From: Opitutales bacterium
GTDB lineage: Bacteria > Verrucomicrobiota > Verrucomicrobiia > Opitutales > Seribacteraceae
Assembly (NCBI GenBank): GCA_029254745.1
Contig: JAQWWZ010000012.1
Coordinates: 1-59,975, forward strand
DNA length: 59,975 bases
Direction: 5' to 3'
Each line of letters starts with the position of its first letter. Position 1 is the stretch's first letter. The notes beneath the pieces are model-generated. The model saw nothing but the letters and a program-made list of their open reading frames with translations, had not been told where the DNA came from and ran no database searches. A program made the position numbers and the translations under genes. Shown piece by piece: positions 2,858 through 52,951 of this stretch.

Positions 2858-4147
2858 TTAAAATTCATTCGAATATAATGCCCAAGATTTCGAACTGTAA
2901 CTGAACACCTTATGTTGCCTTGAGTTGCTCGATTCCATATCCAAGTATAGCCAATCGTTGGTATTAAAGGAGTAGAAGTAAGGAAATGAGAAAGACGACA
3001 CCCATATCCAACCTTGTTCTTTTTGCCATAACCAAATGGAACTCGCTGTCCGAGTTGAGGCGTAAAACCAACCGAGTTGAGCATGAAAAATCCAGCCACT
3101 TTCAAAAGGGAGAAATATGCCAAACCATTGTAACTGCCTCCAGTCACCACCTTGTAAAATTTTCGCCTCTGGCCAAGCAGGAAGGAACTGCTGAATCCAA
3201 GTTGAATGACTTGCTAGTCGGGTGAATACAGTAATATCCCCATACAATGAAAAATTCGTGCCATATGAAACCACTCCATTTATTTTCCACTGGCCATCTA
3301 AAAACATCATCGCAGGCCCCCCGCTATCACCTACAGCCGTGCTTACTTCAAGTGCTAAAGGAGATGGGTCACTATCACCCGTTCCTAGATAATCAACGGG
3401 CTCGTAGTTCGACCCCAAAAGGTTTGCATCTTTTTGAGGGGAATCGAAGTCTACAGCTAAAAGCCCCCCCCAATACTCTTCTGGTAGTGAGGAAATAATA
3501 ACTTTTTCCACGACCCGATCTACGATATTTTCTCCTGCCAGTCTTTGAGAATTATTTGAACTGAAAAATCCATCTACCCCATCAACTTGGGTTCCAAATC
3601 CGGCAATAACAACACGATCACCTACAGATTCAAGTTGAGAACTTGGAAGTGAAAGCGGGTAAATTCCTTCTATTCCTGATTCCAAAAAGCCTAGACAAAG
3701 ATCAACCCCGATACGATCGCCATCCCCCATACCTTCATTAAAACCATCTGTTTGCCTAACAGTCCAACCTGGGTGAATCTCAAACTTTGAAATTTTAAAA
3801 ATCTGAGATTCGTTCGCTTGATCAAAATCCTCAGCAAGAATAAACTGCCAATCACTACCTTGAGGTAAAGGATCAGCCAATGAATTTCTGACAACATGGG
3901 CAGCGGTTACAAAAATATTCGGAGCAATAAGTGTAGCGGTCCCGATGATTCCCTTACTCGATTCCAACAAGCCAACGGCACTTAAATCGGGATAATCAAC
4001 TGAGGGAGAAAAAAAAGTAGCATTTCTTCCAAAATCCTTATGTGACTCCCAGCTTTGGCTATTTAATTTACCAATTCTTCGGGAACAATCTCCTCTAACC
4101 AATAAAAAAAAATAAATGACGAGGGAACAATATACCCACTTATTCAT
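2858..4147 (-). CDS. Secreted trypsin-like (S1) serine protease with aromatic C-terminal domain
   Basis: The 429-residue protein has an N-terminal hydrophobic signal segment (residues 4-17). An S1 peptidase domain follows: TAAHV with His84, a VDLCLGFL segment with the probable Asp149, and GDSGGP with Ser275. The last 97 residues (333-429) are very rich in Trp, Tyr and Phe (GWIF, GWFY, SIWLW, GWIWV, FPYFYS, DWLYLD). They match the C-terminus of the 1803-residue protein at 47540-52951. The ATG start overlaps the end of the proline-rich gene upstream by 8 bp, so the two are probably co-translated. Protease function is solid; the role of the C-terminal domain is unknown, possibly surface sorting or anchoring. 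Confidence 0.85.
   Translation of the reverse strand: MNKWVYCSLVIYFFLLVRGDCSRRIGKLNSQSWESHKDFGRNATFFSPSVDYPDLSAVGLLESSKGIIGTATLIAPNIFVTAAHVVRNSLADPLPQGSDWQFILAEDFDQANESQIFKISKFEIHPGWTVRQTDGFNEGMGDGDRIGVDLCLGFLESGIEGIYPLSLPSSQLESVGDRVVIAGFGTQVDGVDGFFSSNNSQRLAGENIVDRVVEKVIISSLPEEYWGGLLAVDFDSPQKDANLLGSNYEPVDYLGTGDSDPSPLALEVSTAVGDSGGPAMMFLDGQWKINGVVSYGTNFSLYGDITVFTRLASHSTWIQQFLPAWPEAKILQGGDWRQLQWFGIFLPFESGWIFHAQLGWFYASTRTASSIWLWQKEQGWIWVSSFSFPYFYSFNTNDWLYLDMESSNSRQHKVFSYSSKSWALYSNEF
2861..3151 (-). other. C-terminal aromatic repeat domain, copy 1 (in S1 protease)
   Basis: This codes for residues 333-429 of the protease. By hand alignment with copy 2 at 52667-52948, about a third of the residues are identical over 70 positions without gaps. 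Nearly all Trp and many Tyr coincide: WR, WFG, W-I-x-H, GW-x-Y, S-x-W, W-x-W, PYxYS, DWxY. The spacing of GW pairs suggests a small repeated beta unit. Copies sit at the extreme C-terminus of two unrelated exported enzymes. Confidence 0.75.
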
Positions 4148-5045
4148 CTCTGGATGGCTGAATATCCGGGGGCGGACTTGGCGGTAAGATATTGGGTGGT
4201 GGGGGGGGAGGAGGCAAGTTTTCTAATAATATACTACCCTCATCATTACCAGCCGTTGCAGCTTCATTGATCAAATTTCCTGAAGAAACAGAATTCACCT
4301 CTTGAACATTTACTGCAGAGGAAGATGTTTGCTGTATATTGCGTTGAGCAGCAGGTTTAGGACTATTTGAAACAGTTTGAGAGGAAGCCAGGGAAGTGGA
4401 ACTTGCGTTACTTAAAGCCTGACTCGGGTTTGGTAAACCGCGAAAGAATGGACCTGGTGTTGTCCGCCGAGGAACGGCACCGGGATAGGATCGAGAAAAA
4501 GGTTGAGCAGAACTTGCACTACTACCTTCTCTTTTTTTGGAAAGCCAATCTGGTAAAGTGGGAGTAGTTTTAGGTCGAGGAGGCATAAACCTTGTGGTCT
4601 GCTTGGAAGGACTCTTATTTGTGAGGTTGGCATTCCTAGCTTGCGTGCTTTTGCTAAGTACCCCTCCACTCCCACCCGCTTTTGAATCCATCAAGGATAG
4701 AGGAAACGATTGTCCTTCAAAAGATAGGATTAGTTTTTCACTCTGTATATCAAATTCTTCAATTAAATAAGATTCATAACTAGATTCGGAAACAGCTAAC
4801 CATTCGGCATGCCCAGACTTTTTATTAAAAATACAAAAAAAGGGGTTACCTTTGAGGATAAAATAACCTCGGAATTCTACTTCCTTCTGAGCATCCGAAA
4901 TTTTAGCTGGAGGAACTGAAACAGATTTGGGGGGTGGGGGTGGTTGCCTAGATGAACCCGGACGTAAGAAAGGATTTGAAGAAACTCCAGCCAGCAAAAT
5001 TGAAGGTACTATTACAGAGATGCAACTAAAAGCAAAATTTTGCAT
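4140..5045 (-). CDS. Secreted proline-rich protein of unknown function
   Basis: This 301-residue protein has an N-terminal signal segment (FAFSCISVIVPSILLAG). Poly-Pro tracts follow near residue 35 and at the C-terminus (LPPPPPPPNILPPSPPP). Between them is a short ordered-looking region (about residues 56-118) beginning FRGYFILKGNPFFCIFNKK, then a long Ser/Pro/Ala-rich linker. The folded segment resembles short periplasmic beta domains of secretion or pilus proteins, but I cannot assign it. It overlaps the protease gene downstream by 8 bp, so a functional pairing (for example tethering or presenting the protease) is plausible. The product is a hypothetical envelope protein. Confidence 0.72.
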   Translation of the reverse strand: MQNFAFSCISVIVPSILLAGVSSNPFLRPGSSRQPPPPPKSVSVPPAKISDAQKEVEFRGYFILKGNPFFCIFNKKSGHAEWLAVSESSYESYLIEEFDIQSEKLILSFEGQSFPLSLMDSKAGGSGGVLSKSTQARNANLTNKSPSKQTTRFMPPRPKTTPTLPDWLSKKREGSSASSAQPFSRSYPGAVPRRTTPGPFFRGLPNPSQALSNASSTSLASSQTVSNSPKPAAQRNIQQTSSSAVNVQEVNSVSSGNLINEAATAGNDEGSILLENLPPPPPPPNILPPSPPPDIQPSRDE

Positions 5046-47539: not shown

Positions 47540-50500
47540 TTGAAAATATCTATTAAATATGTAATAATTTGCTTTTCGTATATATTTCTAATTGCAAACG
47601 CTTACAGCGAATCAACATCGCTAAGCAACTCAACATTTAGAAGCCACCATATTGAATTAAGTGTTGATATCAGTGGTAAAATTTACACAGCCCAAAAAAT
47701 CTCAAGCCGGGACTTGGGATATGGCAATTTTTCATGGCATGGAAAACTTGTTGAAGATCAAAATAGTATTCTCTCTTTTACTAAAGCCGAAAATATTGTT
47801 TTTGGAACTCTTCGCTTTGGTCATGGTCAAACTTTCAGACTTAAAACTAAAAATGATGGTGAAGTTTTCTTTTCACCCGCACCCCAATCAACTGATGTAT
47901 GTGCAGGTTGTGACTCTCCAAAAAGATCTGTACCCCTTGATCCAAGAAGAGATAGAAGAGGGAAAAATTGGCGCAACGGCGACGGTAATCTCATCGATCT
48001 CTTAGTCGCTTACACCTCAGACGCCAAAAGTGCCCAAAACTTTACTACTGAGAGCGAAATCAAAGCCTATGTTCAGAATGCTATTTCTGAGTCAAATTTA
48101 TGCTTTATGAACAGTAAGGTTAATGCATCAATTCGCTTGGTGCATTTAGTTGAAATCGACTATACAGAAACCCTAAACCCATCCTTAGACTTAAACCGAA
48201 CAGTCAACAAAGATGATGGCTACCTGGATGACCTGCACTCATTACGAGACCTGTACGGGGCAGATCTCGTAACTCTTCTTATTTCCCAAGGGGACGGAAC
48301 GGTAGGGGGGATAGCAAAGAGTATGACCTTCCCCACTTTAGCATTCGCAGATAGCGGGTTTAATGTTGTGGTTATGGACCAAATTGGAGCCCCAAATTAC
48401 AGCTTACTTCACGAGATTGGTCATAACATGGGGTGCTTGCATAATCGGGAAGATGCTATGAATCGTGGTATTCCAGAAACAGACCCTTCCAATAAATCAA
48501 CTTTTAAGACATTTAACTATGGCAAAAGATGGATCCTTGAGAATGAAGGTTACCGAACGATTATGGCCTACGATACGGAAGGTGCGATAACCTACTCCAA
48601 TCGCATCCCTTTCTTTTCAAATCCGAACATTAAGTACAAAGGAGTACAAACCGGAAATTTAAATGCAGAAGATAATGCACAGGTTTTGAATACAACCGCA
48701 CCTTATGTTTCCAACTTTCGAAACTCGGTGGTACAAGAAATAATCCCTTCAGTAAATTCCCTTACAGTAATGGAGGGAAATGCGAGCACATTGACGGTTC
48801 GCTTGGCAACAAAACCAGATCAAAATGTGACCATTTCAGCACAACTAGATTCTGCTGGTGATCAAAACTTTAAAATTGTCGGATCGGGTTATCTTTCATT
48901 CTCTACAGAAAATTGGAATCTCCCACAAACTGTACAAATCCAGGCAACTTTTGACCCAGACTCCGCTACAGGTGAGTCCACCCTCTATCTAAGTGCAAAT
49001 GAAATCCCAACAGCCAATATTGAACTCAATGAGAAAGATTCCGAGCTCAGTAAGGATGATAACTTTTTCATTTCTGGGGTGGTTCAAAATTCTCTAGGTA
49101 TTGGCATTAAAAATGTTGATATCTCACTTTCATCAGGTGAGACATTTATCACGGATGAAAAGGGATCTTTTTTTGTAAGTAGGATAAATGGTTGGATCGG
49201 TTCTCTATCAGCTGCTAAATCAGGTCACACGATCTCTCCTTCGAGCCTCTTAATCACAGCTGACACCACAGGCAATATTGATCAATTGTTCACCGCAAAC
49301 AGAAGTCATATCTTGTATGTAGACGAAGGGGCAACTGGCAATCGGGATGGATCGACTTGGGCTAATGCTTATCAAGACTTTTCCGAGGCTCTTGAATCCC
49401 TGCATCCCTTTTCAGAAGTCTGGGTAAAAAGGGGGACATACAAGCCGGGTGTTTTTCGAAGTGATTTCTTTTTAATTCCCCCTGATGTATCAATCTACGG
49501 AGGATTTGATGGAACCGAAACAGAAAGAGGTCAGAAAAATCCCTTTGTTAATGAAACAATTTTATCGGGAGATATTGGAAGTACTGGGGATGGCTCGGAT
49601 AATTCATTCCACATCGTCGTTCCATCTTCAGGATCCCATATCGAAGGGTTTACCATCGAGGACGGCAATGCGAGCGAAAACTTCTCGGACTCAAGGGGCA
49701 AAGGTGCAGGTTTATATGCAAAGAATGTCAGTTTCACAATAATCGACTGTGTTTTTAAAAATAACCGGGCACGACAAAAGGGTGGCGCACTTTATCTTGA
49801 TGAAACGAATGCATCCTTAACAAATTGCTCTTTCACCTCAAACCTCGGTACAGGACTTGGGGATGGATTCGGATATGCTGGTGGGATATACGCCAACAAA
49901 GTAGTTCTCTCGTTGACTGCCTGCCAGTTTACCCAGAACCAATCTGAGCTTAACGGCGGTGGAATTTTCGCCGAATACTCAACCATCAACTCCACTTCCT
50001 GTATTTTTTCTGGCAATCAAAATACCGATAATAACGGAGGCGGTGCCATGGCGCTGAAGTTTTGCATATTCAATGATATAAATAGTTCTTTCCAGGATAA
50101 CTTTTCGGCTTCTTCGGGGGGGGCTGTTGATATTTATGATTCCAATATCTCCCTTTCAGGAACTTTTTTTCACAACAACCAATCATCCTTTTCTGGGGGT
50201 GCGTTGGCTGGTGAGGGTTCAAATATTTCTGCATCAGACAGTAATTTTTCAGGTAATCAGGTTTCGTCCAACAATGGGGGTGCCTTGTATGTATCTGATT
50301 CAAACTTAATTCTTAACCGATCGCAATTCACTGGAAATCGGTCTGGGTTTTCGGGGGGTGGAGTTTATGTGCAAGATAGCAATGTTACCGCAAGCAACAA
50401 TCAATATGCTCAAAACTCCGCAGATTCATATGGAGGGGGGGCAGCCATAAAAAATGGAATGTGGAATGAGACTCTTGCTTCCTACTCCGATAACAATTCC

Positions 50501-52951
50501 TCCTACAATGGAGGAGGGCTTTATTTGGAGAACTCAAGTGGTTTAATTTCAGATACTAATTTCACATCCAATACAAATTTATCTTTTAACGGTGGGGGTG
50601 GGCTTTCCTTAGAATACTCATCTCCTCAAATTACTAACTGTCGATTCCTCACCAATTCAACAGCTTCAAAGTACGGAGGGGCTATTTACATGAACTCAGG
50701 CTCCAGCCCAAGCATTGAAAAGTCTTCCTTTATTCAAAATAAGGCGATTGGAACCGGTGGTTATGGGGGAGCTCTCTACTTTTTCCAAAACTCTTCTGTT
50801 GTAATCAATGAATGTTTATTTATGCAAAACAGTGCAGACAGTGGGGGCGCATTTGCCACTTGGGATACAAGCGATCTTAATTTTACAAATTGTAAATTTA
50901 TTGGAAATGAAGCGAATGTTACCAGTTCATCAAATGGAGGTGTTTGCGTGTTATGGGGCACTGCAGATAACACTCTTTTTGTGAACTGCCTGCTTTCTGA
51001 TAACCACGCAAACCAATATGGAGGCGTAATTAAAGGTGAAGGAACTTCCCAGTTTGTAAACTGTACATTAAGCAGGAATTCAGCAGGGTCATACGGAGGT
51101 GTTTCCATTCTTTTCCCTGGAAATATTCTGAGGTTTGAAAATTCAATTATCTGGCAAAATACAGCGGATATTGATGGCTCCGATATTTTTCTAAATGGTC
51201 AGACCGTTACTGCTTCATCCAGTATTTTAGATACATCCAAATCCTCCAGCTTAATTTCGGGTACGGATCATTTGAACGCTGACCCTCTCTTTGTAAATAG
51301 TGATGGTGAAGATGGAATCGCTGGAAATGAAGATGATGAATACAATTTACAATCCGAATCTCCTGCAATTGACCAAGCTGATTCCTCCGCGTTACATTAT
51401 TCAGTCACTGACATTCTTGGGAAAACTAGGTACGGGGCATCCCCTGATATCGGTGCCTATGAATACAGAGTCAATACTGCTCCTACAATTAGTGATGGTG
51501 CTTCTTACTCACTTTCATCAAATGAAGATCAATCTGTATCCTACACTCTCTCGGCATCAGATGCGGATGCGGATGACTTATCCTGGTCAATTGCTGAGGA
51601 TGCAAGTAACGGAACTGTTTCCGTAGATCACGGAACAGGCGAGGTAAGCTACCAACCAAATCCTGAATGGTCGGGGACAGATTCATTTGTAGTCATGGTT
51701 TCCGATGGCACCATAATTTCCTCCATATCTATAACTGTCGAAGTAACTTCCGTAGACGACCCTCCATATGTTTCAAACGAAATTGCCGATCAGACCAAAC
51801 AGGAAGATGATACCAACTTCAGTATAGACCTATCCTCTGTCTTTTCGGATCCAGATGGGGATGCCCTTACATACTCCGTAAGCTCATCGAATGATTCACT
51901 TGTGATGACATCTGTACAAAACAGCAACCTTATCCTTTCACTAGCACTTAACCAAAACGGAGAGACAACAATCACAGTTTCCGCCACCTCAAACGACGAT
52001 ACCATCACCTCATCTTTTGATTTGCTTGTTGATCCTGTTGATGATCCACCCCTGGTTGTTAGTAAAATCCCGGACCAAGCTTATGAGGAAGATGCTTCCG
52101 ATTTCAGTGTTGATCTCTCTTCTGTTTTCTCAGATCCAGATGGTGACACCCTTACTTATTCGGTCCTGTCAACAAACAACTCGCTTGTATCTTCATCGGT
52201 AGAGGGACATTTCCTTATTCTATCTCCTTCCCTTAATCAAAACGGGCGGGCAACTATCACCTTATCCGCTTCCTCAAATAATCAATCTGCAAGCACAACC
52301 TTCGATGTCTTAATAACCGCTGTTAATGATAATCCTACTTTTGATAGCATCCCAAATCAGCTCAGCGTTTACATCCCAGAATCGACACTGGGTGTTTATG
52401 ATTTTAATGCCTCTGACCTAGATGCAGATTCCTTAACTTATTCCATTATCGGGATTGACTCAGGCAATTTTGAGATAAATGCAAGCACAGGGTGGCTCCT
52501 CTTCCGTGAATTACCTGATTTTGAAAGTCCAGTTGATTCCGACCAAAACAATTCTTACTCGCTCACTGTCCTAGTTAGCGACCCGAGCGAATCTGCTACT
52601 ACCCTTGATGTCACGATTTATGTAAATGATATTGATGAGTTTGCCTGGTCGACCAGCCAGACTCTTCAAGGTAAATGGAGATCAACCTCATGGTTTGGCT
52701 ACTATTACCAGAACTCAAACAAATGGATCTATCATCTCGATCATGGATGGATTTACCGGGAAGGAGACTCCATGCTCTCAACTTGGTTTTACGACAATAC
52801 CCTAAAGTGGTTATGGACTAATAATCATCATTACCCATACCTTTATAGTGCTGAAGCGAGTGATTGGATGTATTTTTCACCTGAACAAGTAGATAGTCGA
52901 AGTTTTTATGACTATGCTACAGGGTCATGGATTGTACTTGATAGGAATTAA
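47540..52951 (+). CDS. Giant secreted protein: metzincin-type protease, beta-helix with Pmp-like repeats, cadherin-like repeats
   Basis: The 1803-residue protein starts at TTG (47540) with a signal peptide (KYVIICFSYIFLIANAYS). A metalloprotease domain (about 145-395) has the zinc motif HEIGHNMGCLH at 291-301 and a Met-turn TIMAYDT near 340-346. A Calx-beta-like segment follows (about 410-495), then a carboxypeptidase-regulatory-like fold (510-590) and a long right-handed beta-helix (about 590-1310) opening YVDEGATGNRDGSTWANAYQ. Tandem cadherin/Ig-like repeats follow (1312-1705), and last the aromatic C-terminal domain (1710-1803). The beta-helix carries about 17 GGA-type and a dozen FxxN motifs. 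It is probably a large surface adhesin or degradative enzyme. Confidence 0.85.
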   Translation: MKISIKYVIICFSYIFLIANAYSESTSLSNSTFRSHHIELSVDISGKIYTAQKISSRDLGYGNFSWHGKLVEDQNSILSFTKAENIVFGTLRFGHGQTFRLKTKNDGEVFFSPAPQSTDVCAGCDSPKRSVPLDPRRDRRGKNWRNGDGNLIDLLVAYTSDAKSAQNFTTESEIKAYVQNAISESNLCFMNSKVNASIRLVHLVEIDYTETLNPSLDLNRTVNKDDGYLDDLHSLRDLYGADLVTLLISQGDGTVGGIAKSMTFPTLAFADSGFNVVVMDQIGAPNYSLLHEIGHNMGCLHNREDAMNRGIPETDPSNKSTFKTFNYGKRWILENEGYRTIMAYDTEGAITYSNRIPFFSNPNIKYKGVQTGNLNAEDNAQVLNTTAPYVSNFRNSVVQEIIPSVNSLTVMEGNASTLTVRLATKPDQNVTISAQLDSAGDQNFKIVGSGYLSFSTENWNLPQTVQIQATFDPDSATGESTLYLSANEIPTANIELNEKDSELSKDDNFFISGVVQNSLGIGIKNVDISLSSGETFITDEKGSFFVSRINGWIGSLSAAKSGHTISPSSLLITADTTGNIDQLFTANRSHILYVDEGATGNRDGSTWANAYQDFSEALESLHPFSEVWVKRGTYKPGVFRSDFFLIPPDVSIYGGFDGTETERGQKNPFVNETILSGDIGSTGDGSDNSFHIVVPSSGSHIEGFTIEDGNASENFSDSRGKGAGLYAKNVSFTIIDCVFKNNRARQKGGALYLDETNASLTNCSFTSNLGTGLGDGFGYAGGIYANKVVLSLTACQFTQNQSELNGGGIFAEYSTINSTSCIFSGNQNTDNNGGGAMALKFCIFNDINSSFQDNFSASSGGAVDIYDSNISLSGTFFHNNQSSFSGGALAGEGSNISASDSNFSGNQVSSNNGGALYVSDSNLILNRSQFTGNRSGFSGGGVYVQDSNVTASNNQYAQNSADSYGGGAAIKNGMWNETLASYSDNNSSYNGGGLYLENSSGLISDTNFTSNTNLSFNGGGGLSLEYSSPQITNCRFLTNSTASKYGGAIYMNSGSSPSIEKSSFIQNKAIGTGGYGGALYFFQNSSVVINECLFMQNSADSGGAFATWDTSDLNFTNCKFIGNEANVTSSSNGGVCVLWGTADNTLFVNCLLSDNHANQYGGVIKGEGTSQFVNCTLSRNSAGSYGGVSILFPGNILRFENSIIWQNTADIDGSDIFLNGQTVTASSSILDTSKSSSLISGTDHLNADPLFVNSDGEDGIAGNEDDEYNLQSESPAIDQADSSALHYSVTDILGKTRYGASPDIGAYEYRVNTAPTISDGASYSLSSNEDQSVSYTLSASDADADDLSWSIAEDASNGTVSVDHGTGEVSYQPNPEWSGTDSFVVMVSDGTIISSISITVEVTSVDDPPYVSNEIADQTKQEDDTNFSIDLSSVFSDPDGDALTYSVSSSNDSLVMTSVQNSNLILSLALNQNGETTITVSATSNDDTITSSFDLLVDPVDDPPLVVSKIPDQAYEEDASDFSVDLSSVFSDPDGDTLTYSVLSTNNSLVSSSVEGHFLILSPSLNQNGRATITLSASSNNQSASTTFDVLITAVNDNPTFDSIPNQLSVYIPESTLGVYDFNASDLDADSLTYSIIGIDSGNFEINASTGWLLFRELPDFESPVDSDQNNSYSLTVLVSDPSESATTLDVTIYVNDIDEFAWSTSQTLQGKWRSTSWFGYYYQNSNKWIYHLDHGWIYREGDSMLSTWFYDNTLKWLWTNNHHYPYLYSAEASDWMYFSPEQVDSRSFYDYATGSWIVLDRN
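49740..51130 (+). repeat. Coding repeats: GGA/FxxN units of the beta-helix
   Basis: About 17 units recur with GGAL, GGGI, GGAV or GGAI and FxxN (FKNN, FTSN, FSGN, FTGN, FIQN, FIGN), every 22-35 residues. The pattern is the same as in chlamydial polymorphic membrane proteins. The DNA is moderately repetitive and coding throughout. Confidence 0.85.
52667..52948 (+). other. C-terminal aromatic repeat domain, copy 2 (in the giant protein)
   Basis: This codes for residues 1710-1803: KWRSTSWFGYYY, KWIYH, GWIYREG, STWFY, KWLWT, YPYLYSAEASDWMYF, SWIVLDRN. It aligns with copy 1 of the S1 protease across its whole length. The two host proteins share nothing else, so the domain is a mobile C-terminal module. 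Confidence 0.75.

Follow-up and report, generated by a model that had tools for sequence, protein, structure and literature searches.

An aromatic-rich, mostly C-terminal domain on exported proteins of Opitutales: a candidate surface-retention module that shares a slot with PEP-CTERM

Two exported proteases with a common end

The window, by which we mean the whole stretch of 59,975 nucleotides that was analyzed, carries two genes for exported proteases whose products end in the same kind of domain. The first encodes a trypsin-like S1 protease of 429 aa (2858..4147, minus strand; Pfam Trypsin, E 9e-15), with an N-terminal signal peptide, MNKWVYCSLVIYFFLLVRG, that can be recognized by reading. 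Its last 97 residues correspond to 2861-3151, as the first-pass annotation had correctly placed them, and the aromatic domain (copy 1), which is supported by BLASTP, a profile, and an AlphaFold2 model, occupies 2861..3184 on the minus strand, with a profile core at approximately 2882-3145. A proline-rich ORF (4140-5045, minus strand) shares 8 bases at its end with the beginning of the protease ORF; therefore, the two may form one operon.

The second gene (47540..52951, plus strand) encodes an exported metzincin/beta-helix/cadherin-like protein of 1803 aa, in which Pfam identifies Reprolysin_5, Chlam_PMP, Big_9, and Cadherin, and NCBIfam identifies choice_anch_Q, together with a Mep72-like match below the cut-off. 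The choice-of-anchor Q domain covers residues 1268-1309 (51341..51466, plus strand; NF041518, E 2e-7, 31 bits against a cut-off of 25). Copy 2 of the aromatic domain, supported by the same three kinds of evidence, lies at 52622..52948 on the plus strand (profile core approximately 52673-52933).

In a BLASTP alignment of 91 columns, the two C-termini are 32% identical, with 49% positives (E 4e-19), and the Trp and Tyr positions are kept. When the full-length proteins are compared (E 6e-18), there is no second significant stretch beyond the C-termini, which bears out the earlier view that the hosts are otherwise unrelated. Judged by their sequences, the last 97 residues of the S1 protease and the last 94 of the metzincin are homologous, as had been proposed; chance is not the explanation, since a profile built from 19 copies has about 27 matches in the same genome, of which 19 are full-length (E 1e-22 to 1e-31).

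The family is thus larger than the pair first reported. A search of its own genome with a single copy gave 24 places and the 19-copy profile gave 27, the matches other than the 19 full-length ones (all at E 1e-22 or better) being either weak or fragments, mostly at contig ends. One decayed copy with two in-frame stops lies near a contig end (L023, 239-427; G000:C25).

Sequence, predicted fold, and hosts of the aromatic domain

The domain is approximately 90-100 residues long, with invariant or nearly invariant W, G, and H positions that can be summarized as GWxxSxWFGxF ... WIYHxxLGWLY ... WLW ... GWLWT ... YPxLY ... WLYF ... YDY ... W. Aromatic residues make up 27% of it, and the composition is mildly acidic. 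From one second strand to the next, the Trp residues are spaced by 19-20 residues, and the aromatic profile shows high autocorrelation at lag 20 (permutation p 0.007). Strand positions i and i+2, which form a ladder, are aromatic in 80-99% of copies, and the residues between them are aliphatic in 80-95% at all but one of the seven positions examined; this alternation suggests a two-faced sheet.

Two AlphaFold2 models, one of the metzincin copy (m1bf184b80e06; pLDDT 91.0, pTM 0.79) and one of the S1 protease copy (m20ef48e6af18; pLDDT 91.1, pTM 0.80), agree on ten short strands arranged as five hairpins. A fold search of the PDB with both models gave no convincing match (Foldseek E no better than 0.49 and 0.32; Z no higher than 3.4 and 3.7), and choline-binding folds were absent among the matches listed; the missing match should not be taken as proof of a new fold.

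The first reading had recognized no named family, and the wider searches agree with it: the 19 copies matched no family in Pfam (E 0.5) and nothing in NCBIfam, including its sorting-domain profiles, a sequence search of the PDB gave no match for the domain, and literature searches found no description of it. A match to OCRE (E 0.004) was rejected as weak and as a coincidence of W/Y-rich sequence. In two further loci (L144 and L146), the last hairpins are replaced by a common NLTENQRFIFRVR-like tail ending in LYDYGYSP.

That the module is common to unrelated exported proteins, as had been suggested from two examples, is borne out by 72 hosts, which carry 47 Pfam families, none of them in more than 5 hosts. 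The host domains include cadherin, TSP3, FGE-sulfatase, BACON, subtilase, trypsin, GSDH, endonuclease I, LamG, metallophosphoesterase, and fasciclin, and most of the host families are typical of exported proteins. Choice-of-anchor types J, Z, and NxxGxxAF are also found among the hosts, in addition to type Q in the metzincin of the window. A home-made rule scored a signal peptide for 42 of the 60 hosts whose 5' end is complete; among those that failed, several have an evident hydrophobic N-terminus on reading. The rule is permissive (19 of 41 control ORFs in the window also scored), and these counts should be used as supporting evidence for export only. A home-made lipobox pattern was found in 0 of the 42 predicted signal peptides.

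Among 175 distinct copies, 156 (89%) end no more than 45 residues from the stop codon (median 5), with no transmembrane (TM) helix or basic tail seen after the domain. Seven are N-terminal, mostly directly behind the signal peptide, nine are placed otherwise, including some that precede FGE-sulfatase-like domains, and three run off the edge of the stretch. The domains that follow the internal and N-terminal copies include FGE-sulfatase, fasciclin, and TonB_C-like ones. The DUF1800 proteins carry the domain at the C-terminus in the window's own genome and at the N-terminus in another (G406), which points to a domain that probably works as a folded unit rather than as a C-terminal peptide signal. 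At one locus (L209, 8441-9301), the domain is followed, by reading, by an apparent TonB C-terminal domain, an arrangement that suggests that some hosts face the periplasm. In L102 and L159, which encode giant proteins, a different common tail with the motif aellifgksss stands behind the domain and is possibly a second terminal element.

The family appears to be confined almost entirely to the order Opitutales (Verrucomicrobiota), in marine members of which dozens of exported proteins carry the domain. In a sample of the phylum, it was present in 9 of 388 genomes, seven of which belong to the window's order, and in a sample of the order, in 79 of 273, including all 36 genomes of the window's family, which often hold at least 18 copies each. 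A motif scan of the named contigs of the whole GTDB returned loci labeled nearly all as Opitutales, Opitutia, or Verrucomicrobia, a scan that required one exact motif and therefore does not prove absence from other groups. One genome deposited as "Deltaproteobacteria" (L135, JAJXYD010000011.1) has 16 copies and is either mislabeled or the recipient of a transfer to another phylum; a bin deposited as "Akkermansiaceae" (L132, JAPKDJ010000116.1) has one copy only, and the short contig that carries it is possibly a contaminant.

Exchange with PEP-CTERM and the distribution of exosortase

Orthologues of the window's S1 protease were collected across the order. The aromatic domain is their terminal element in the window's family, in family f93, and in two genomes of family f6 (G451 and G481). 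The orthologues of two other f6 genomes (G164 and G443) have canonical PEP-CTERM tails in exactly that position, IPEPRTLPAILGILTLLVVFIRRRRSHR and IPEPRHFAMAFGAVLMLVVGLRRRTTR (endings also given as VIPEPRTLPAILGILTLLVVFIRRRRSHR and NIPEPRHFAMAFGAVLMLVVGLRRRTTR). A single slot is therefore filled by two types of tag, both inside one protein family and inside one bacterial family. The DUF1800 proteins, used as a second test of this exchange, gave no PEP-CTERM tails.

The PEP-CTERM profile PF07589, scored over full genomes, had 0 matches in four of four genomes of the window's family, as compared with 34-87 in seven of eight other members of the order and 2 in the eighth (G364). In the order sample, it was found in 2 of 36 genomes of the window's family (one match each) versus 168 of 237 others, a contrast with a Fisher p of 2e-14 that treats genomes as unrelated even though it rests on one clade. 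Because PF07589 misses some verrucomicrobial PEP-CTERM sets (PMC1569441), the window's own genome was also searched with a home-made scan for a PEP-like motif followed by a TM helix and a basic tail. This found 0 in 1.17 Mb (48%) of the genome as opposed to 10 in 0.45 Mb of control loci from PEP-CTERM-rich genomes. Replacement is not general, since families f5 and f6 have both the domain and PEP-CTERM within the same genomes.

The first-pass annotation had suggested co-occurrence as a way to a matching secretion or anchoring partner, and the genome searches, which covered exosortase and PEP-CTERM, gave no dedicated one. All 36 genomes of the window's family have the domain, and 26 of them (G000 and 25 more) have exosortase (PF09721), but so do most genomes without the domain; a pairing of the two is not favored, exosortase being spread irrespective of the domain. 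The window's family keeps exosortase though PEP-CTERM proteins are virtually absent from it, that is, an enzyme without its usual substrates.

Proposed function and comparison with known systems

We lean, by a modest degree, toward reading the domain as an undescribed extracytoplasmic retention or anchoring module that would act by non-covalent glycan binding. Its extracytoplasmic location and its exchange with PEP-CTERM are well supported; its ligand and mechanism are what we infer. The host proteins would be exported through an ordinary N-terminal signal peptide, after which the module, a mobile folded row of five short beta-hairpins with W/Y at i and i+2 of each strand, would keep them non-covalently attached to the cell envelope or the extracellular matrix. 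The aromatic ladder would form the binding face and would most likely stack on an envelope glycan or an exopolysaccharide, and in the window's family, the module would largely have assumed the function of the PEP-CTERM/exosortase tag. Non-covalent retention would be the simplest mechanism, and the ligand is a guess. One should keep in mind two points against this reading: the C-terminal bias exceeds what a free-floating binding module would need, and the fold searches, made with predicted models, gave no match to a ligand-binding fold.

A broader proposal, which we offer tentatively and judge possible rather than probable, is that a lineage of Opitutales gave up sorting by PEP-CTERM and shifted much of what it exports to a folded anchor that binds non-covalently. 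Such an anchor, whether recognized by a dedicated machine or by a ligand in the envelope or matrix, would constitute a new localization system in outer-membrane bacteria.

The strongest of the rival explanations, though an unlikely one, takes the domain for a C-terminal sorting signal. A dedicated machine for secretion or attachment would recognize it, as happens with the type IX C-terminal domain (CTD), and might cleave it off after export. The crowding of copies near the stop codon, the domain's place in the PEP-CTERM slot of orthologues, and the choice-of-anchor proteins among the hosts are consistent with this, and to that extent the sorting or anchoring role first proposed for the module stands. 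As a pure C-terminal sorting signal, however, it is unlikely, because some copies lie directly behind a signal peptide or are internal, the latter a position that the first-pass annotation had itself named as speaking against its proposal. The stable prediction of a 100-residue fold, the lack of an NCBIfam sorting-domain match, and the failure of the searches, which covered exosortase (spread regardless), to identify a correlated partner also count against it. Given the N-terminal and internal copies, a retention or binding module fits better than a C-terminal sorting or secretion signal.

It is less probable still that the domain is a carbohydrate-binding or adhesin module through which secreted enzymes and adhesins would bind to polysaccharides or particles of the environment rather than to the producing cell. 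The aromatic ladder, the mildly acidic aromatic-rich composition, and the variable position of the domain would suit such a role, but several hosts (DUF1800, FGE-sulfatase, trypsin) have no evident polymer substrate, no carbohydrate-binding module (CBM) profile in Pfam matched the 19 copies, and the exchange with a sorting tag also counts against it. A terminal cap for folding, stability, or oligomerization, with no part in localization, is improbable: it would agree with the terminal position and the confidently predicted compact fold but leaves unexplained the exchange with PEP-CTERM, the presence on dozens of unrelated hosts, and the near-restriction to one order.

Little is understood about surface attachment in PVC bacteria. 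Recognition of the family would give an annotation to dozens of hypothetical proteins in each genome of a large and mostly uncultured order; orthologous proteases with either the domain or a PEP-CTERM tag are a natural pair for asking what PEP-CTERM does; and the retention of exosortase in a family with nearly no PEP-CTERM proteins raises the question of the substrate of this enzyme.

Among known systems, PEP-CTERM/exosortase (EpsH; PF07589, TIGR02595, PF09721) resembles the domain in that many different exported proteins of each genome bear it as a C-terminal module and that it occupies the same position on orthologous S1 proteases. PEP-CTERM has been described as associated with EPS in outer-membrane bacteria, and it consists of approximately 25 residues, with a motif, a TM helix, and a basic cluster, that are thought to be processed (PMC1569441). 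The aromatic domain, in contrast, has approximately 95 residues, is predicted to be folded, lacks the TM helix and basic tail, and can be N-terminal or internal; neither PF07589 nor TIGR02595 matched any of the 19 copies.

The choice-of-anchor domains (J, Q, Z, and NxxGxxAF) adjoin the domain on its hosts and are partner domains rather than the module itself, neighbors that would be expected if the domain is one of the anchors. The C-terminal domain of type IX secretion is conserved, has approximately 80-100 residues, and is carried by many different secreted proteins, so that it is similar in size, C-terminal site, and host range; unlike it, the aromatic domain matched no T9SS sorting profile of NCBIfam and is not strictly C-terminal.

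Choline-binding repeats (CW_binding_1, PF01473) form rows of W/Y-rich beta-hairpins of approximately 20 residues in a left-handed superhelix and bind the choline of teichoic acid. On paper, the plan is similar, with rows of hairpins at one end of exported proteins, but the aromatic domain has no Pfam match and lives in outer-membrane bacteria. Homology to these repeats, suggested by the 19-20-residue spacing of Trp, was rejected after a profile-profile comparison with four phage lysins (hhalign score of 9.8, as against up to 15.2 in column-shuffled controls). By analogy, the domain resembles both the choline-binding modules and PEP-CTERM in presumed purpose but belongs to neither, since it lacks defining features such as a match to their profiles and, for PEP-CTERM, the TM helix and basic tail, and it is best described as an undescribed family within a known kind, the surface-retention modules.
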